NCBI GenBank assembly: GCA_025786725.1
Contig: JAHLTZ010000005.1
Span: 310,001 to 374,000 of the forward strand
From: Syncephalis fuscata
Taxonomy: Eukaryota; Zoopagomycota; Zoopagomycetes; Zoopagales; Piptocephalidaceae
Direction: 5' to 3'
Length of the DNA: 64,000 nucleotides
The notes beneath the pieces are model-generated. The model made no database searches and was not told the DNA's origin. It worked only from the letters and a program-made list of their open reading frames with translations. Positions 5,148-64,000 of the stretch are shown here, in pieces. The translations under genes were made by a program, and so were the position numbers. How positions within the stretch are numbered: the first letter of the stretch is position 1; each line of letters opens with the position of its first letter.

Positions 5148-5653
5148 ATGTCTAATAATATAAACGCTGAGGCAACGCCTGTCGACCCAACCGTTGCTGC
5201 TCTGCTGCTGATACGACAACGGCAACTACTTCGTCCAAAGCGGAGTCTGCGTCGCAAGAGCAAGACACAAGCGCGGCCTATAATGAGGAGACCGGCGAGA
5301 TCAATTGGGATTGTCCTTGTCTCGGCGGTATGGCTGACGGGCCGTGTGGTGAGGAATTCAAAACAGCTTTTAGTTGTTTCGTCTATTCAGAAGCGGAACC
5401 AAAAGGTATGGATTGTGTAGACGCGTTCAAACTGATGCAAGATTGTTTCCGTCGTTACCCCGAAGCCTATGCTGACGAACTAGCCGACGTCGATGACGAG
5501 GAAAACAAAGAACTCGAAGGTCTTGAAGGTCTTGACGATGAGTTTTGGGATGGACCATTGTCGACAAGCGATAAGAATCAACGCTACCATAACGATAACC
5601 ACAACGACGAGGATAGTCTTCAATCGTTGTTGAATGAAACGGCACCGCGATAA
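5148..5653 (+). CDS. MIA40: Mitochondrial intermembrane-space import oxidoreductase Mia40/CHCHD4
   Basis: Mia40 oxidises cysteine-motif substrates entering the mitochondrial intermembrane space, working with Erv1. The redox CPC motif is visible (WDCPCLGG, about 5309-5332), followed by the twin CX9C CHCH fold: [11 protein letters not shown] and [11 protein letters not shown]. After that comes an acidic tail rich in D, E and N. The start at 5148 ([11 protein letters not shown]) and the CPC-containing part are in different frames; one base must be gained or lost in the repetitive GCTGCTCTGCTGCTG stretch at about 5195-5215. The CPC and CHCH part is uninterrupted to TAA at 5653. No transmembrane anchor is seen, so this is the short, animal-like form rather than the long yeast form. 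A single-base assembly error is the simplest reading. Confidence 0.88.
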
Positions 5654-23561: not shown

Positions 23562-25050
23562 ATTAAATTTAGATGTCTAAATAGACACAAACACACACAC
23601 GCGCGTAATAAACGATGGTAAAATACAAAAGTAAAAAAAGTAAAAGACGAGTAAGTGAGTAAGTGAGTGAGTGAGTAGGTGAGTAAAATCAACGTAGGCA
23701 GGTAAGAACGGCAACAGCAGCACGCTCAAGCAAGTGATCCGTTTGACAGGGCAGCCAATAAAGAAAAAGGCGTGCTAAGCAAGTGTGGACAAGAGTAAGC
23801 AAGACGCGAACACGATGTGGTTGGCTTTTAATAGTAACTACGACAACACTGTAAAAGCTGTGATGTGGCACCGTTAATCTTATCCTTTTTTTGTTTAATG
23901 TGCGCGTGCTTAGCTATTTTTTATTGGTAACGGGTCTGCTGTTGTTGTTGTTCTAGCCACAAATCAACAAGACAAAATGATGGATTATAGGCAAATTAAT
24001 GCACATAGCATGGTCGTACACGCCTATAAACTAGGATACGTGGGAAGAGATGCGCACAGCTGACGTGTACAGCACCTAACAGTTGGTCAATAAAAATCAA
24101 ATAAATAGCCAAAAAGTTAATCAAATGTACACTTTATTTATTGTCGTCATCGTGTAAATGAAACGAGTAGTTCTTTAGTAACAGCTAAATCAAATGGAAT
24201 AACCAATCATTAATCCACTGTTAATTAGTGGGTCTATTCAAATTAATGAATTGTCATTCGATAATGTCGTTAAAGACTAGTTTCCACTTTTGGTCTTTCA
24301 ATGGGACCTGCCAAGTAATGTTATTTTATAACAATAAATACAAAATCCTAATTATCTATGATTGTAGATCCGGATTTGGGTTTGCCCTTTTAATCAGCTA
24401 TTTTGATTGGTAGTCAAATAAAAAAGTACCAACAATTAGTGCTGTTTAACTGCATGTCTGTAAGTCCTTGGCATGGTGTATAAGACTAATGCCTTCGGCT
24501 TTTGTCTTTGTTTTTTCGCCTTTTCTTTCGGCACGCATGTGTACCGATGCTGCCTCGATAAATATCATTTCCATACAACCGGGATCTTTTACGTACTCTC
24601 ATCGGTTAAACAACGGAGACAATTACCGTGGGCAATCTGGTAAACAATGACGGTTTACGATGTGAACTCATATTGACACCGACCATTTGTGTAGCTACTT
24701 TTGGTAATTTTGTATGTTGCCACACGGCCATTTCTATATTGGTATTTTTACTTTGATGGCCTATTCTACAGGCAGTCCTATGCAGCAAGGCGAAAGTGCT
24801 TGTTGAATCACTTTGCGGCATAAAGACACAACACGGGGTCACACGGGTTAGCTGGATTGGAAAACTCGTTTGTTCTGGTAGCGAACTTTGAAAATAATTT
24901 ATTTATAGTGCCCATTAATTTATGAAGTTCCAATTGTTTTTATATATTTCCTTGACGATCCTTTTACGCACACGCCTACACCTACAAGTCTATCTCAATT
25001 CAAACTATTTGCACGATTTACTGGTAAGTGTAGCAGCATACTTGGATGGT
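23562..25050. other. Divergent intergenic region between CDS1 and aquaglyceroporin 2
   Basis: Contains a CA-rich stretch near 23586-23606 and a GAGT/GTAA short-repeat run at about 23648-23685 just upstream of CDS1. Several open frames (24228-24413, 24468-24650, 24606-24842 minus) lack any protein-like signature and are not called. Confidence 0.45.
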
Positions 25051-47618: not shown

Positions 47619-47627
47619 TATAAATAG
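47619..47627 (+). promoter_or_regulatory. TATA box of the micro-exon gene
   Basis: TATAAATAG at 145 bp before ATG 47764, the same word and nearly the same distance as at the CBM19 secreted-protein gene (146 bp). It supports the idea that the array is transcribed from a regular promoter. Confidence 0.6.
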
Positions 47628-47763: not shown

Positions 47764-49934
47764 ATGAAGCTTTCTATTGCCGCCGTTTGCACCATTGTCG
47801 TGGCTATCATGGCCAGTACAGCCATGGTAGATGCTAAACCAGCCTTAGTTCGCCGTGGTGGTATGTTGCAATAACAATAAATATACCATAATATTTTGTT
47901 TACTAACATTGTTTTTAAATAATAATTATAATAGAATGTAAGCACTATTGTATATTAACTGACTATACATTAACTATGCCATTTATCAACTATACCGACT
48001 ATTTAATATTAATAGCTCGTAAGTCGTATTGTATGTTAATAGAGCATACAATAATTATATACTATGCATTACCTCCATCAATAACTTGATATTAGTAACA
48101 TGTAAGTTGTATTGTATAGCAATCACCTACTCGCTAATTGCATATTATGCATCATGTGCATCAATGATTTAATAATAATAGGCGGTAAGTAATACTGTAT
48201 ATTGATTAACTATTGACTAATTATATACCATGCATTGTGTGTACCAAAAAATTAATGCCATAGAGGGTAAGATGTATTATATGTTAATTAACTGTTCACT
48301 AACTTTATATTATACACCACGTATATAAAAAACTTAATATTAATAGAATGCAAGTTATATTATATATTAATAGAGGGTAAGTGGTATTGCATACTAATTA
48401 ACTATGCTATTCACTGATTGTACCAATTGTTTAATATTAATAGAATGTAAGTAATATTGTATGTTAATTAACTATACATTAACTATAATCTTTGTTAATT
48501 GTGCCAATTATTTAATATTAATAGGGAGTAAGTGATATTGTATATTACTTAATTGTACATTAATTGCTATTTACTGAATGTGCTAATTATTTGATATTAA
48601 TAGAGGGTAAGTGGTATTATATATTAACTGACTATACATTAACTATGCTATTTACTAATTGTGCTAATTATTTAATATTAATAAACTGTAAATGATATTA
48701 AATATTAATTAACTATACATTAACTATGCTATTTACTAATTGTGCCAATTATTTGATATTAATAGATAGTAAGTGATATTAAATATCAATTGACTATACA
48801 TTAACTATGCTATCTACTGATTGTACTGATTATTTAATCTTAATAGTTAGTAAGTTATACTGTATATTAACTATGCTATTTACTAATTGTGCTGTTTACT
48901 TGATATTAATAGAATGTAAGTAGCATTATATATCAATTGATTATACATTAACTATGCTATCTACTGATTGTGCTGATTATTTAATCTTAATAGTTAGTAA
49001 GTTATACTGTATATTAACATGCTATTTACTGATTGTATCAATTGTTTAACATTAATAGGTGGTAAGTTGTATTGCATATTAACAGACTATACATTAACTA
49101 CACTATTTGCTGATTGTGCCAATTGTTTAATATTAATAGCCTGTAAGTTGTATTGTATATTAACTGACTATACATTAACTATGCCATTTACTGATTGTAC
49201 TAATTATTTAATATTAATAGGTGGTAAGTTATATTGTATATTAACTGACTGCATTAATTTTACCAATTATTTAATATTAATAGTGTGTAAGTGATATTGT
49301 ATATTAATTGGTTATATAGCAACCATGGTATTTATTGATTGTATCAATTGTTTAATATTAATAGTTAGTAAGTGGTATTGTATATTAACTGATTATACAT
49401 TAAATATGCTATTTATTGATTGTACCGGCTATTTAATATTAATAGAATGTAAGTTGTATTGTTTATTAATTGATTATTCACTAATTACATGCCATTTACT
49501 GCGCATCAACAACTTAATATTAATAGGTAGTAAGTAAAGCTATGTATTAACTGAATATGCACTAACTACATGCCTTGTATTATGTACAAATAACTTAATA
49601 TAATAGGACGTAAGTTGCATTATGTGTCGATTAACTACTTGCTAATTATATGCCATGTATTATGCGTATAAATAACTTAATATAATAGAAAGTAAGTTGT
49701 ATTATATATTAATTAAATATCCACTAATTATGTGCCATGTGCTGTATCCATCAATAAATCAATATTAGCGGAATGTAATTTGTATAGTATATTAATTAAT
49801 TCCTCACTAATTACATGTTATGCACTATGTGTATCAACAACTTGATATTAATAGGCGGTAAGTAGCATTGTATATTGATAGATTATGTATTAGTTATGTG
49901 TAATATAATATATTTATTTGTAAATACAGAATAA
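47764..49934 (+). CDS. Micro-exon gene: secreted four-cysteine peptide encoded by about 24 exons of 3-6 nt
   Basis: Exon 1 (47764-47860) encodes MKLSIAAVCTIVV..., a signal peptide, then KPALVRR, a Kex2-like dibasic site, and ends in phase 1 at G|GTATGT. Next come 3-nt exons at 47935, 48016, 48182, 48264, 48374, 48444, 48525, 48604, 48766, 48847, 48913, 48994, 49059, 49140, 49221, 49284, 49365, 49446, 49527, 49607, 49689 and 49855, plus 6-nt exons at 48096 and 49769. Nearly all sit between (TTAATATTA)ATAG and GTAAGT. Joined, they give 27 residues with cysteines spaced C-X11-C-X3-C-X4-C, and TAA (49932-49934) follows two bases into the last exon. Total 180 nt coding, 59 residues. Units at 48347 and 48685 look non-functional. 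Splicing is inferred; no family recognised. Confidence 0.72.
47861..49929 (+). repeat. Tandem array of 81-nt intron-plus-codon units
   Basis: About 26 units, each an intron of usually 76-80 nt (shorter variants of 60-67 nt lack an internal block) plus a 3-nt remnant. Conserved within a unit: donor GTAAGT, a TTGTATTGTATATTAA block, ACATTAACTATG, a (T/A)TTTACTGATTGT block and the acceptor TTTAATATTAATAG. The introns are far more alike than the 3-nt exons between them. The last four units (about 49530-49857) form a diverged subgroup sharing TGCCATGTATTATG and AACTTAATA. Confidence 0.9.
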
Positions 49935-51696
49935 TCGATGGTTTCAAGACATCAGCATTGGTGGTGCAATCAAGCCACTATTCCAATACACTTTAGGTAT
50001 ATATTCGGTGAAAAGCAAGACCATTTGACAACTACGCCGTCCAGTCTATCTATATATCAAGTTTTGGCCAATGCTTTGGCTTATTCAGTCTTTAACCAAT
50101 GGAATCATTATTTTATCGACATGTTTGCATCTAGTTGTCCCTATTCAGCTGTGCAAGCTTATCGGAATAAACTTATGATTTCATTTTAACAAGATAATAA
50201 TAATAAATTGCCAATTGGATTTTAATACTGAGAAATAATTTATTGAAGCAGTGCTATATCATTTCCAATTAATTCAAGTGATAAGTCAGCCCGCATTATT
50301 TTTAATATCCAATATTAGTGTCAATAAATGTTAAATAATATTTTATATTGTTACTATATCGATTGTAAGGTACTGTAAAGTTTGTAAACAGCCAAAGTAG
50401 GAGGGAAAGCGGTAGGGATGGCTTAGCAAACTATAAATACTTAATTAATAAAATTGTTATTAAATATTTACGTAATGGACTTTGTTACCAACAAATAGCT
50501 TTGTTTAGCACTTTACACAGAAGTCACAGCTGTATAACCCTGAAATTTAAGCTAAAAGAAAACGTTGGGAGCAAAAAAGCTGTTTATTAACTGTTTGGCC
50601 GACAGTATTATAATACTTAATACTTTCGGCATTTAAAATGGTGTATACTGCAATGGGCCCTGACGGGAAAATCTTAATTAAAGTACGACAAAGCTTAAAT
50701 TGAACTTCGTTAAGTACGTAATTTAAGCATTGGTAACAATATTATATACAATAAAATATACCCACTTTAGCCACTGATCATAATAAATGGCTAACAAATT
50801 TAATTAAATTGTATAATAATGTTAAATGAAACACAACAGTTTACATAATTATCCCGTTTATTCAACTCAATTAACGCAATAATCATTGATATCATTACTA
50901 AAATAGCTAACATAAGTGTAATTGTAGTAAATGTACCTCATTGTAATATGCTAATATTCAATCAATCTTTTTACACATGGCCAACAACAATAATGATTAA
51001 CCTCAAATGTCTTAATGAAATCAAATACTATTAATAAAAAGTAATATAAATATATTGTGTATAATAATGGTATGACTTTAAACAAAATTTACTTTAAGGA
51101 CTCAAAATAGAGTGTGAAAAATAAATGTTAATCAACTTTAGTATATAATTAGATACTGTGTTTTACACAAAAAGACACAAGTAATGTAAATATAAAGGCG
51201 CATTTTACTTTGGATCAAATAAGTTAATAGGATAATGTACTTATTAAAATGCTAATAAATCTAAATATAAAGATTACATGTGTTTAATATGTGCAGTGTT
51301 AGCTTTTAGTCTTGCAATTTCAATCATATCGTATTAATCCATCTAATAATAATAGTGATTAAATGACATTAATTATTAATATTTCTACTAAATGCTGTTT
51401 ATAAAGTTATAATAAATTTACTTATTTTATTCAATCGATTTAAACAGGCAATAAAATACTGAATTGTTTATCATTTTATAAATATGATGTCTAACAAACG
51501 TCATCACATTTTCTTATTTCTTATTATTGACTGTGTACAAGTGCCGTCATTTCACCAATCAGCCATCTTTACGCATTCTCTTCCCAAACCAATTCCATCG
51601 CCTGTGTCTTTCATTTGCTAACAAGAGTATATTGGATTCTTGAGCCTATTCTCTAGTTTAATTGGCGTTTTAATCGCAAAACAGAACTATATTACA
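49935..51696. other. 3' region of micro-exon gene and spacer
   Basis: The first 250 bp may be 3' untranslated sequence; an 83-codon frame at 49938-50189 lacks support. Dispersed repeat copy C lies further down. Upstream of Upf2 the sequence becomes pyrimidine-rich (about 51540-51630). Confidence 0.4.
50940..51130. repeat. Dispersed repeat, copy C
   Basis: Shares ATTCAATCAATCTTT...ACACATGGCCAACAACAATAATGATT with copy A, TTAATAAAAAGT with copy B, and a GTATGACTTT...AAATTTACTTT end with both. The 5' third of the element is less well preserved. Confidence 0.55.
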
Positions 51697-59464: not shown

Positions 59465-60452
59465 TTACTCAAATATATAAGTTGTAGTTATTCCAGTCAC
59501 ACCGAATCTATTACGAGTAGTTGTTTGATCCTCGATCGATACTTTGGATGTTGTTGTTGGTTTAGTACGTGGTTTTGTTGCCGTATATGATTCAGGTAAC
59601 ATGTGTAGATTGTATATGTTGTTTACAAGTAATGTAGCCGCTATCGCCCTATACTTTTCAATTTAGTACTTTACACGTATGAAAAATTTTAATTTTTACT
59701 TACCAATCAACGATATACAGTAAATCACCATTTTCTTTAATTACCTCGGTTGCATTGATGATAAAACATAACATATTCGATGCAACTACTAATAGCATTG
59801 TAATCACACCGTCTTTTGCCAGTTTTTTCCAACATGCTTCTTGGTATCGTTTATAATGACGATAAATCACCATAAGGAATATTGCAGAAAATATAATATT
59901 GGATGGAAGGTCAAGGGCTATTCGGGCGTATGGAAGATATGATTTGTATTGAATATAGCATCCGTGGATTTCACTATATCGGGAAGTTGATGAATATTGT
60001 ACAATGGTAATGTATATGGGGCCAGGGACAATGATCAGTATAATGCCAATTATTAAAAACCATCTTGGACGGCCACATGCAAGGTAGGCACGTTCAAATA
60101 GTACAACATTTGTGAGTGCTAATGAAAATGTTGCCCCAACTATTATGGCCCAAATTAATATGTGGCAGGATAAGGAACCTAGTGCAAGAGATGGAAAGCC
60201 AATAAGCACAAACAGCATTATACCAGTCAGATTTATAGTTAAGCAGCACCATGGAGCGAGTTTACGCGGATAAGCAGATACTACAAATCCAGCGCGATAA
60301 GCATTTCTTAGGAAAATGGACAGCACTATTATACCAAATAATATTTGGAAATTGATTGCTAGATAGCGTCGCCTTAACGAATCTATTTCATCGCGTGCTT
60401 TCCATACAAAATCTATGCTGTTCAAATTTCCTGACAAATCACCTTCTATCAT
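59465..60452 (-). CDS. Seven-helix membrane protein, tandem family member 1
   Basis: Two exons: 59704-60452 and 59465-59648. Seven hydrophobic segments can be counted: YLAINFQILFGIIVLSIF, PWCCLTINLTGIMLF, WAIIVGATFSLALTNVVLF, WFLIIGIILIIVPGPIYI, a fifth ending YRHYKRY, ITMLLVVASNMLCFII, and a seventh split by the intron after Trp codon TG|G (LLYIVDW joined to RAIAATLLVNNIYNL). The extracellular loop has HGCYIQYKSY. Topology (short outer N-terminus, charged KRYQEACWKKLAKDG third inner loop) fits a GPCR-like receptor; no known class was recognised. The polar tail is Thr-rich. Paralogous to the genes at 61064 and 62719. Confidence 0.8.
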
Positions 60453-61063
60453 GTTATTAATATATGTATAAATTATCTTTGACTGGAAATTATGTATAAT
60501 ATGAGTGTAGACTACAAAAAGAAAGGCCTTGCAGGGCTATTGAAAGTGGGTGCAAGGATAGATTGATGGAAGCAACATGACGCGTGATTGGTATGTAAAC
60601 GGGTTAGGTGCATGCATATCATACAAGATAAATCAGAATGCTGCAAGCTTAGTGGTTAAATCTGACTTAAATACATGTACTAAACGTCTAGTAAAAATCG
60701 AGGCTTTGCATAAGCCGTCGTATTAAATTACAGCATAAACTGAATGCACTTAATATAGTCAAACAGTACAGTTTAAAGTAGATTTTTATTATAAAGATAA
60801 CCAACTAAAAGATTTATGTTTAGTTATGTCCGAATATTATTTTATATCTTGTAACTATTTAAAGCCTATGCTCTATGTATTGTGTAACCTCTGAGTATCA
60901 TTAAGTGCTGGATTTATGGTCTATTCATAACAATACAATTATAGTATTCATATTACATATTATATTTACAAGTGTTAATGAGGCCATGTCAGTATCATTT
61001 ATATAATATTGAAAACCTTTGCCATAGAATCAATGTATTTAATCAGCGTTTGTTGTTATCAAA
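60453..61063. other. Spacer between seven-helix genes 1 and 2
   Basis: Upstream of gene 1 a block with GTAAACGGGTTAGGTGCATGCAT and ACAGAATG-like words recurs upstream of gene 3 (about 63840-63895), showing the promoter was duplicated with the gene. No additional gene. Confidence 0.5.
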
Positions 61064-62050
61064 TCACTCAAACATATAAGTTGTAGTCATGCCTGTCACT
61101 CCAAATTTATTGCGAGTAGTTGTTTGGTTCTCGATCGATACACTGGATGTTGCTGTGGGTTTAGTACGTGATTTTGTAGCCGTGTATGATTCAGGTAACA
61201 TGTGTAGATTGTATGTATTATTTACAAGTAATGTGGCCGTTAATAACCTATACTCTTCGAGTTAATACTTAACACGTATAAAGTGTTTAAAGTTTACTTA
61301 CCAATCAGCAACATACGTTAGATCACTGGTTTCCTTAAATACATTGGTTGCATTGATAATAAAAGATGCTATATTTGATGCAATTATCAATAGCATTGTA
61401 AGCACGCCGTCTTTTGCCAGCTTTTTCCAACATGCTTCTTGGTATCGTTTATACTGACGATAAACCACCATACTAAATATTGCAGAAAATATAATATTAG
61501 GCGGAAGGTCGAGGGATAGCCGAACATATGGAAAATATGATTGATATTTAAAATAACATCCATGTGTTTCATTGTATCTGGGAGTTGATGAGTACCATAC
61601 ATTAATTACGTATGCGGGACCGGAACCACCAACCATTATAGCGCCTAATATTAAAAACCACATTGGACGATTATATGCAAGATAGGCACGTTCAAATAAT
61701 ATAACATTTGTAACTGATGATGAAATTGTCACTCCGGCTATTATAGCCCAACCTAACGTGTTGCAAGATGCGATACCCAGTGCAATAGATGGAAGGGTAA
61801 TAAATACCGACAGTAATACGCCAACTAAATTTATAACTAAACAGCACCATGGTGCGATTTTATGAGGATAATTAGCTACTATATATATAGCTCGATAAGT
61901 ATTTCTTAGAAAAATGACTGCTGCTATTATTGCAAATAATATCTGGTAATTAATTGCCAAATAGCGCCGCCGTAACGAAGCCGTTTCATTGCGTGCCATC
62001 CATACGAAGTCTGTGCTTCCCAAGCCTCCTGACAGGCTATCTTGTGTCAT
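61064..62050 (-). CDS. Seven-helix membrane protein, tandem family member 2
   Basis: Exons 61302-62050 and 61064-61247, with the intron at exactly the same TG|G position as its neighbours. Start MTQDSLSGGLGS; helices correspond one for one with gene 1, and the third inner loop KRYQEACWKKLAKDG is identical. The loop before helix 5 reads HGCYFKYQSYFPY. The tail ends TTTYMFE then TGA. Most different from the other two in helices 1-2 (AIYIVANYPHKIAPWCC). Confidence 0.8.
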
Positions 62051-62718
62051 GTTATTAATATATGAAAGCTAACTTTGAATAAGCAATTATGTATAGTATA
62101 AATACAAACTAATAGAGGAAAAGCATTACAAGGCCATGGAAAGTGGCTACAAAGGATGGGCTGATGGGGGATGACATGATGCATAATTGGCATGCAAACA
62201 GGTTTTAAATGAATTTACATTCTTTATATTAAGTAAAAGCGCCCGCAGACCAATGTTTAGTCTTTGGTTTAAAATATATGTGTTAGGCTTATAGTAAAAG
62301 TAATCACAGGTTTAATTAAATGTAAGTTAGATATTGGTTGCTATTTGTCGCTAACCGAACTAGTTATAAATTTGTTTTACTCACTAATCTATATGCACAA
62401 TAACCTCATATTGCTACTTATGTTTTCCCATTCTATATTAGCTTTAATGTATAATATTATCTTCTTGCAGAGTTGAAGCCACAGAAGTTCAAGATTGGCA
62501 CAAAATATTTAAGAGTTACTCGGTGTTTGGAAGCTCGTATTTTGAGCCTGCGCTTAGTATTATAAAAATATTGTTCGTTGGTTTGACAATAAAATAAAAT
62601 GCTTATAACGTTTTTGCTTATTTGCTTTTATATAAACAATTAATGTATTTCATTAAATAGCTATTCGTACATTTATTAATAGTTCGATAATTAAATTGAC
62701 AAATAAAGATGTAACAAA
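62051..62718. other. Spacer between seven-helix genes 2 and 3
   Basis: Contains the duplicated GCNA-like first-exon fragment described separately (62467-62600). Otherwise AT-rich and gene-free. Confidence 0.5.
62467..62600 (-). pseudogene. Copied fragment of the GCNA/SprT-like gene first exon
   Basis: Matches 59,260-59,395: GATTGGCACAAAAT, a GGAAGCTC...TTTTGAGC run, CTTAGTATTATA and the flanking TTGGT(T/C)TG and AATAAAATAAAATG words align in the same order. In this copy the start codon and SUMO-motif region have decayed and there is no downstream remainder of the gene. It sits downstream of seven-helix gene 3, just as the true exon sits downstream of gene 1. Confidence 0.75.
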
Positions 62719-63704
62719 CTATTCATAAATATAAGTTGTAGTTATTCCAGTCACACCAAATCTATTACGAGTGGTTGTTTGATCCTCGATCGATACCTTG
62801 GATGTTGTTGTTGGTTTATTACGCAGTTTTGTAGTCCCATATGATTGCGGCATCATATGTAAATTGTATATGTTGTTTACAAGTAATGTAGCTGTTATTA
62901 TCCTATATTCCTCGCTTTAGTATTTTACACATAAAGTGTTTCAATTTTTACTTACCAATCAGCAACATACAGTAGGTCACTTGCTTCTTCGAGCATTCTG
63001 GTTGCACCTACAATAAAGCATATTATATTCGATGCAACCACTAATAGCATTGTAAGCGCGCCGTCTTTTGCCAGCTTTTTCCAGCAGTCCTCTTGGTATC
63101 GCTTATAATGACGATAGATCACCATACTAAATATTACAGAAAATATAACATTAAATGGGAGGTCGAGGGATAATCGAACATATGGAAGATATGCTGGATA
63201 CTTAAGATAACATCCATGCATTTCATTGTATCTAGGAGTTGATGAGTACCATACAGTAATTACGTATGCAGGGCCGGAACCACCAATCATTATAATGCCT
63301 AATATTAAAAACCACATTGGGCGATTACATGCAAGATAGGCACGTTCGAATAATACAGCATTTGTAATTGCTGATGAAATTGTCACTCCGGCTATTACAG
63401 CCCAGGCTAACGTGTTGCAAGATGCGATACCCAGTGCAATAGATGGAATACTAATAAATACCGACAGTAGTACGCCAACTAAATTCATAGCTAAGCAGCA
63501 CCATGGAGCGAGTTTACGAGAATAAGCAAATACTACATATCCAGCGCGATAAGTATTTCGTAGTAAAATAAACACCATTATTACACCAAATAATATTTGA
63601 TAATTGATTGCTAGATAGCGTCGCCTTAACGAATCTATTTCATCGCGTGCTTCCCATACAAAGTCTATGCTTCCCAAATCTCCTGACAAATCATTTTTTA
63701 TCAT
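62719..63704 (-). CDS. Seven-helix membrane protein, tandem family member 3
   Basis: Exons 62956-63704 and 62719-62902, intron at the shared TG|G codon. I chose ATG 63704 (MIKNDLSGDLGS) because it aligns with the starts of the two paralogues; an in-frame ATG 45 bp upstream would add a hydrophobic stretch not present in them. The loop HGCYLKYPAYLPY and inner loop KRYQEDCWKKLAKDG are conserved. Closest to gene 1 in the N-terminal half and to gene 2 in helices 3-4, a mosaic that hints at gene conversion. Tail ends TTYIYE then TAG. Confidence 0.8.
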
Positions 63705-64000
63705 GTTATTGATATAGAAACTAACTTTGAATAAAACAGTAATAAACAATATGGATATAGATTAATAGAAGGAAAACGTTACAAGGTTACCGAAAACTGC
63801 CATAAAGGACAAGCTATCAAAAATCTACATGTCGCGTGATTGATATGTAAACAGGTTTAGGCGCATGCATATTATACAGGACAAACAGAATGTTGAAGCC
63901 TAGTGCATAAAATTTGACGTACGATATACATGCAATTTTATGACAAAAGCATAATTATCAATCTGGCTATATTTAATAGCATCCATGCACCTGGAATAGA
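63705..64000. other. Upstream region of seven-helix gene 3
   Basis: Contains the block TGATATGTAAACAGG...GCGCATGCATATTATACAGG shared with the region upstream of gene 1 (about 60,590-60,640). No gene. Confidence 0.5.

Follow-up and report, generated by a model that had tools for sequence, protein, structure and literature searches.

Architecture of the predicted split gene

The window, a stretch of 64,000 nucleotides of Syncephalis fuscata DNA, contains on its forward strand a gene that consists of exon 1 (47764–47860), an array of introns and very small exons (47861–49929) and a terminal exon (49930–50190). Exon 1 is 97 nt long, ends in phase 1 at a GTATGT donor and encodes a predicted signal peptide followed by an Arg-Arg processing site (MKLSIAAVCTIVVAIMASTAMVDAKPALVRRG). 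A TATA-like box (TATAAATA, 47619–47626, forward strand) stands 145 nt upstream of the ATG. The same motif is found at equal distance in the family members C1a, L043 and L046, and variants judged by eye (TTAAATAG) in L042, L045, L047, L049 and L050, with none seen in the examined upstream stretch of L044; both the box and the leader are common to several genes of the family.

The array comprises about 25 introns, most of 76–80 nt, separated by single-codon exons, and its units repeat with an 81-nt period. Between exon 1 and the terminal exon there are 24 micro-exons, 22 of 3 nt and two of 6 nt, exactly the composition proposed in the preliminary description. In the 5′ part of the array, the splice-signal model uses AAT (47935–47937, donor GTAAGC), CTC (48016–48018), the 6-nt TAACAT (48096–48101), GCG (48182–48184) and AGG (48264–48266, donor GTAAGA). 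The micro-exon AGG at 48374–48376 is followed in the model by AAT (48444–48446), GGA (48525–48527) and AGG (48604–48606), and then by ATA (48766–48768), TTA (48847–48849), AAT (48913–48915), TTA (48994–48996), GTG (49059–49061), CCT (49140–49142), GTG (49221–49223), TGT (49284–49286), TTA (49365–49367), AAT (49446–49448), GTA (49527–49529), GAC (49607–49609) and AAA (49689–49691). The last two micro-exons of the model are the 6-nt CGGAAT (49769–49774), with the weak donor GTAATT, and GCG (49855–49857), the final one ahead of the terminal exon. Of the 22 copies of the strict unit AGNNNGTAAGT in the window, 20 lie inside this array; the number expected for the window is 1.78, and none of 100 shuffles reached 22.

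Each micro-exon had been described as flanked by consensus AG and GTAAGT; this calls for qualification at two units. The unit AAT at 48347–48349 has a GCAAGT donor and forms the left end of a fused remnant together with the AGG at 48374–48376, 27 nt downstream; use of this left end is uncertain. Inclusion of both units gives a premature stop; the frame stays open with AGG alone, with neither unit, or with 48347–48376 taken as a single 30-nt exon. The splice-signal model of the window gene hits this premature stop because, blind to stops, it took the AAT at 48347. The second unit, ACT at 48685–48687, has an AA acceptor (48683–48684) and a GTAAAT donor and looks dead; its counterpart is a used ACT micro-exon in the model of the related gene L053.

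With units 48347 and 48685 omitted, joining of the exons yields a product of 59 residues, MKLSIAAVCTIVVAIMASTAMVDAKPALVRRGESLTCEEEWKDIKFSACVFKCRQTECE, with the cysteine pattern C-x11-C-x3-C-x4-C and the Arg-Arg site, identical to the sequence given before. The TAA stop (49932–49934) stands right at the start of the terminal exon, as previously noted, followed by a 3′ UTR with AATAAA at 50166–50171; the 3′ end is approximate. This exon shares homology with the 3′ part of an intronless family member.

A large family in the S. fuscata genome

Search of the S. fuscata genome (28.95 Mb, 299 contigs) revealed the strict unit AGNNNGTAAGT at 5490 places, compared to 1147 for a reversed control, and three consecutive units at 2273 places, compared to none in the control. 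If a gene has some 20 strict units, this excess suggests an estimated ~200 arrays. The exon 1 peptide gave 341 first-look candidates; all of the 150 that were scored match, with E of 3e-8 or better, and the other 191 were left unscored, which corresponds to at least 150 exon-1 copies. In addition, the start of the terminal exon is found, with up to three mismatches, at 56 places and at none in the control. A protein-database search returned 16 annotated proteins with the family leader, every one from S. fuscata. Compared to the exon-1 copies, this number indicates that annotation mostly misses or mis-models this effector-like family. The size of the family, the intronless sisters described below and the fused and dead units of the window copy are all additions to the preliminary description.

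Recent duplicates of a whole micro-exon gene were observed at C1:475-478k and C1:531-534k, in opposite orientation, and at C2:225k and 245k; C1a differs from C1b in whole blocks of units. A count of intronless genes, obtained by splitting the 150 exon-1 rows on open-frame length (75 and 75), was dropped because the micro-exon genes L043 and L046 sort with the long frames.

For 25 genes, all chosen for their exon 1, models were built with a dynamic-programming procedure that scored splice signals and lengths, rewarded the known terminal exon and allowed exon lengths of 3, 6, 9 and 12 nt; stops and the amino acids of the array had no role. As the loci had been selected via the unit pattern and exon 1 similarity, they are not a random sample. 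The models contain 622 micro-exons (593 of 3 nt, 27 of 6 nt and two of 9 nt), up to 41 per gene. Their introns are in phase 1 throughout, and 624 of 647 measure 50–100 nt, with a median of 78 nt. The donor is GTAAGT at 528 of the 622 micro-exons and, after exon 1, GTATGT in 23 of 25 genes. Fourteen of the 25 genes, among them the window gene, have a 6-nt exon as their third micro-exon, and in several of them it supplies the residue preceding the first cysteine. An earlier chain, in which exons of 1–30 nt were allowed with a penalty, lists 289 exons, 10 of which appear twice, and two of the 289 have a length that is not a multiple of three.

The terminal exon is recognisable in 14 of the 25 modelled genes; in eight the examined DNA ends first, and in three (L045, L050 and L051) it was not found though the DNA continues. 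In five of the 14 (the window gene, L039, L044, L060 and L063), the first model stop lies ahead of the terminal exon, which may reflect either mis-modelled units or decay.

Some arrays carry inserts. In C1a, L044, L059, L062 and L063, array introns of 450–502 nt contain a ~420-nt repeat, which by eye appears to have an antisense tRNA-like part, poly-T and a flanking duplication; it is probably a SINE, and the host intron is merely longer in the models. L044 and L062 have introns of 901 and 890 nt close to exon 1, with a second insert of ~0.8 kb in common.

The reading frame depends on exon order

Read across the introns in genomic order, the 25 genes contain six stops in 628 codons, compared to a mean of 37.8 and a minimum of 24 in 2000 within-gene shuffles of the exons. 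The same order gives 91 cysteines, compared to a shuffled mean of 51.4 and a maximum of 68. After removal of five close relatives, the remaining 20 genes have five stops in 478 codons (shuffled mean 26.6, minimum 14 of 5000) and 67 cysteines (shuffled mean 36.8, maximum 52), and reversal of the exon order in this set gives 32 stops.

An equal lack of stops is seen with strict AG-NNN-GTAAGT units, which were identified without any model. The 370 junctions between neighbouring strict units contain three stops in phase 1, compared to a mean of 17.2 on shuffling (minimum 8 of 5000), with no depletion in phase 2 (26 vs 28.6). Phase 1, which combines the last base of one exon with the first two of the next, is the very split of codons that had been proposed for the window gene. 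When each exon is read as its own codon, there are likewise few stops (5 of 653) yet only two cysteines, so that the shuffle rather than the bare stop count is the real test.

The cysteines also follow motifs. C-x3-C is present in 12 of the 20 genes (shuffled mean 2.2, maximum 9) and C-x2-C-x3-C in four (shuffled mean 0.17, maximum 3); at most one cysteine is present in six of the 25 modelled products. Without ordered splicing, it is difficult to account for a coding signal that spans introns and depends on exon order. This signal supports the original assignment of a secreted-peptide gene built from 3-nt exons, and we infer from it that the single-codon exons are spliced in order and translated, or were until recently.

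The exons might be real but variably used, with subsets of codons skipped and many peptides produced per gene. We regard this as a possibility of the lesser sort: skipping would be frame-neutral given the 3-, 6- and 9-nt exon lengths, and certain splice sites are weak, but the conserved cysteine spacing argues for a single main full product.

An intronless sister shares the cysteine framework of a micro-exon gene

The annotated proteins P0122, P0124 and P0129 have the family signal peptide, and each is contiguous in one open frame; P0124 and P0129 are each found at two places in the genome. The joined product of L061, assembled from 30 micro-exons (GLEECWACMDECTTIYTTAECRKNNYCAKQCRK), shows the framework C-x2-C-x3-C-x8-C-x5-C-x3-C. 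The intronless P0124 (...KCKECINECEGVPKPSMKEKCNKPGRCKAECA) has identical spacing but x11 as a spacer. None of 200000 shuffles of L061 gave its six-cysteine pattern, and in shuffles of all 20 genes the L061/P0124 pattern was reached by one gene in 1 of 5000. Moreover, 23 of the 150 exon-1 rows give a contiguous, stop-free alignment with the joined L061 precursor that covers 58 or more of its 64 residues, although the common signal peptide supplies much of the identity. A framework common to a joined product and an intronless paralogue, within a genome-wide family, further strengthens the assignment.

An intronless L048 gene (C278) is similar to the window gene in both the promoter-like region and the 3′ UTR, and is thus not a simple retrocopy; its own cysteines do not match the framework of L061. 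It may represent the unsplit ancestral form or a cDNA-mediated loss of introns. As intronless and one-intron-per-codon paralogues are present in one genome, massive intron gain or loss becomes testable.

Comparison by eye of the 16 annotated family proteins with the modelled joined products revealed no equal pair. P0121 consists of exon 1 of L044 and a piece within the modelled intron 1 that derives from the ~0.8 kb insert, whereas in P0123 and P0128 the signal peptide continues into array-intron-like sequence. These three models contradict the reading given here; they might be the output of a predictor unable to use 3-nt exons, and we do not count them as support. A Pfam search with eight family peptides gave nothing above the cut-off, the two sub-threshold matches being Gloverin (0.051) and ARC6 (0.084). 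Three mature peptides strung together as one query, which is uninformative, gave no match.

Turnover and origin of the array introns

The array introns form one sequence family, with a mean difference of 30% between genes, compared to 41% for shuffled controls. Close relatives are mosaics of units. The window gene and L053 are nearly unchanged in the first six and the last nine matched units; compared to L053, the window gene lacks a block of five micro-exons but has two extra units. Unit pairs between genes whose two flanking introns both lie within 5% carry identical exons in 68 of 72 cases, and those with flanking introns at most 2% different in 48 of 50. A faster mutation within micro-exons was rejected, as matching units keep the same exon in those 68 of 72 pairs; the 53–71% micro-exon difference in more distant pairs arises largely because non-matching units were aligned.

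For 366 of 502 introns, the closest relative belongs to a different gene, and for 136 to the same gene (26.9 expected), the latter excess pointing to some local copying; for 23 it is the adjacent intron (10.3 expected). Neighbouring introns (25.8%) are hardly nearer to each other than distant ones. The array ends are positionally homologous between genes (24.7 vs 37.4% difference for the first intron and 16.9 vs 35.4% for the last), and the interiors show hardly any positional homology. Among within-gene, non-neighbouring units with introns 5–10% apart, three of 39 exons are identical and 83 of 117 sites differ; 31 of these 39 pairs come from L044, and with neighbours included four of 43 are identical. 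The L044 introns look as if copying or homogenisation had affected them but not their exons; introner-like insertion or intron-limited gene conversion would produce this, and the pattern does not choose between them.

Introner elements comprise many introns of a single sequence family, and the arrays likewise hold many introns of one family. The arrays may conceivably have originated from an introner-like mobile intron that was inserted at every codon of an intronless ancestor, although we consider this rather unlikely. Consistent with it are the likeness of the intronless L048 to the window gene in the flanking regions, the weak kinship of neighbouring introns with most nearest relatives in other genes, and the similar introns flanking unrelated exons, chiefly in L044. 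However, the excess of same-gene and adjacent nearest relatives indicates local duplication, the homologous array ends fit one ancestral array, and the intronless genes are equally explicable as cDNA-mediated losses. Moreover, near-identical introns across unrelated genes, a feature of introners, are absent here: the ~270 kb examined, some of it overlapping, held no intron of the family beyond the arrays, all 743 profile hits lying in clusters of at least three that are arrays.

It is improbable that the arrays are mostly relics, with the intronless sisters at work and the micro-exon copies in decay. Certain observations are in line with such decay. Exon 1 appears frameshifted, without ATG or interrupted by a stop in L040, L041, the L048 array and the first L042 array, which are probably decayed copies; premature stops occur in some models, and inserts lie within array introns. 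The window gene itself is possibly decaying, given its fused and dead units. Nevertheless, stops in the 25 genes are about six-fold below the shuffled expectation, and micro-exons are conserved in the 48 of 50 unit pairs mentioned above. Exon 1 is identical in the window gene, L053, L054 and L055 despite a 27–28% difference between the introns of the window gene and those of L054 and L055. Dead and working copies may well coexist. Five arrays that have no intact exon 1 in the examined DNA (L040, L041, L052, the L048 array and the first L042 array) were left out of the exon-1 models; the neighbouring units on those strands contain no phase-1 stop (20 units in L040, 4 in L041, 16 in L052 and 12 in L048, the first L042 array not being counted apart).

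The idea that the array is one long intron or a non-coding minisatellite, in which AG-NNN-GTAAGT is a mere repeat motif and the product is exon 1 plus the last exon or a read-through into the first introns, can draw on the 81-nt period, on the immediate stop that also follows from joining exon 1 straight to the terminal exon, and on the annotated P0123 and P0128, but is very improbable because the open frame and the cysteine patterns depend on exon order and are lost on shuffling, and because a joined product carries the cysteine framework of an intronless sister.

A putative one-codon-one-exon pathway

We therefore favour, with a probability of roughly 0.88, a large S. fuscata family of small secreted, mostly cysteine-rich peptides whose mature part is encoded by one codon per exon. 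Exon 1 would provide the signal peptide and the Arg-Arg cleavage site, each codon of the mature peptide would be completed in phase 1 from two successive exons, and the terminal exon would open with the stop. The short introns would be removed by intron definition, probably 5′ to 3′ during transcription. With each ligation, the lengthened exon and the next GTAAGT would form a new 5′ splice site, so that isolated recognition of a 3-nt exon would never be needed, in keeping with the strong GTAAGT. Exon bases that are unable to aid pairing with U1 would be offset by the near-constant GTAAGT. As only 3 nt separate AG from GTAAGT, it appears unlikely that the two ends of an exon are recognised at the same time. 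Against the proposed pathway, dozens of splicing events for each short mRNA look costly.

After secretion, the peptides would undergo Kex2-type cleavage and disulfide folding and work extracellularly as effectors or antifungal peptides, with the fungal host as the most likely target. Syncephalis is listed among mycoparasites in PMC10386755. This lifestyle, together with the signal peptide, the Arg-Arg site, the small size, the many cysteines, the variable mature part and the copy number, suggests such a role. Exchange among the repeated introns could add, delete or swap whole codons with frame and splice sites intact, and in this way the array would let the peptide vary. The odds are about even that these genes represent a one-codon-one-exon class, in which each amino acid is a cassette that recombination adds, removes or swaps and that splicing may include or skip, as a modular means of effector diversification.

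Comparison with known systems

We know of no kind of gene that is more finely split. Alpha-hairpinin-type peptides are cysteine-rich and form a helical hairpin with C-x3-C ... C-x3-C. C-x3-C occurs in 12 of the 20 S. fuscata products, for which such a fold would be hypothetical; the structure model of an intronless member, P0124, is poor and of low confidence (pLDDT 60).

Bicycle proteins of aphids have paired CYC motifs, and to our knowledge no related intron array occurs in their genes. According to PMC9168663, bicycle genes encode putative effectors and have a mean of ~17 exons, and almost every internal exon begins at the second codon position, as in all 25 models here. One conserved relative is reported there to encode ~2000 residues in more than 100 microexons, and hence exons far beyond one codon.

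The family likewise resembles the micro-exon genes (MEGs) of schistosomes. PMC10526429 describes these as lineage-specific and difficult to annotate, encoding secreted proteins with a conserved signal peptide in short, mostly frame-preserving exons. In S. fuscata, the hydrophobic exon 1 leader with its Arg-Arg site predicts secretion, and the 622 micro-exons are short multiples of three, the only lengths that the models allowed. MEG exons measure up to 81 bp, most 15 bp and at minimum 3 (by the abstract) or 6 (by the text), and the genes have 10 to 20 exons and introns of 0.1–5 kb (PMC10526429). This predominance of long introns and 15-bp exons is not seen in the S. fuscata models, where 593 of 622 exons have 3 nt, a gene contains up to 41 micro-exons and the interrelated introns have a median of 78 nt; moreover, the hosts belong to different kingdoms. 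In kind, the family is similar to the MEGs of schistosomes and the bicycle genes of aphids, but it is far more extreme.

Isolated exons of 1 or 3 nt are documented for Arabidopsis APC11 (PMC4674806) and Fusarium CYP621A (PMC12940212), the latter backed by an intronless homologue and RNA reads, and two 3-nt exons for a Dactylellina lipS gene (PMC5639578). They show that such exons can be spliced, but with only one or two per gene, whereas the S. fuscata genes have their whole mature coding region in tiny exons. The abstract of a 2024 paper still terms functional microexons new for filamentous fungi (PMC11121469). Search of open-access full texts for microexons in fungi or effectors, for Syncephalis and for 3-nt exons yielded nothing comparable. 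No printed case of dozens of consecutive one-codon exons was found in them, in agreement with the preliminary description, which knew of none.

If the proposed reading is true, the spliceosome is forced through dozens of exons below recognition size. These arrays would represent a natural extreme for spliceosome biology, with splice sites 3 nt apart 20–40 consecutive times and order and frame kept. As the exons leave no room for exon definition, they offer a direct test bed for splicing that proceeds sequentially and rebuilds each 5′ splice site. In parasitology, they point to a large effector-like family largely overlooked by annotation.

Other features of the window

Rfam and tRNA scans of the window gave no matches. 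A short repeat of the octamer GAGTAAGT at 23649–23686 includes one AG-NNN-GTAAGT match. On the minus strand, 59700–63761 contains three similar open reading frames, apparently tandemly repeated multi-pass membrane proteins. The neighbouring PIG-O-like protein corresponds to S. fuscata BDF19DRAFT_463342, with identity across 1151 residues (99.9% by tblastn).
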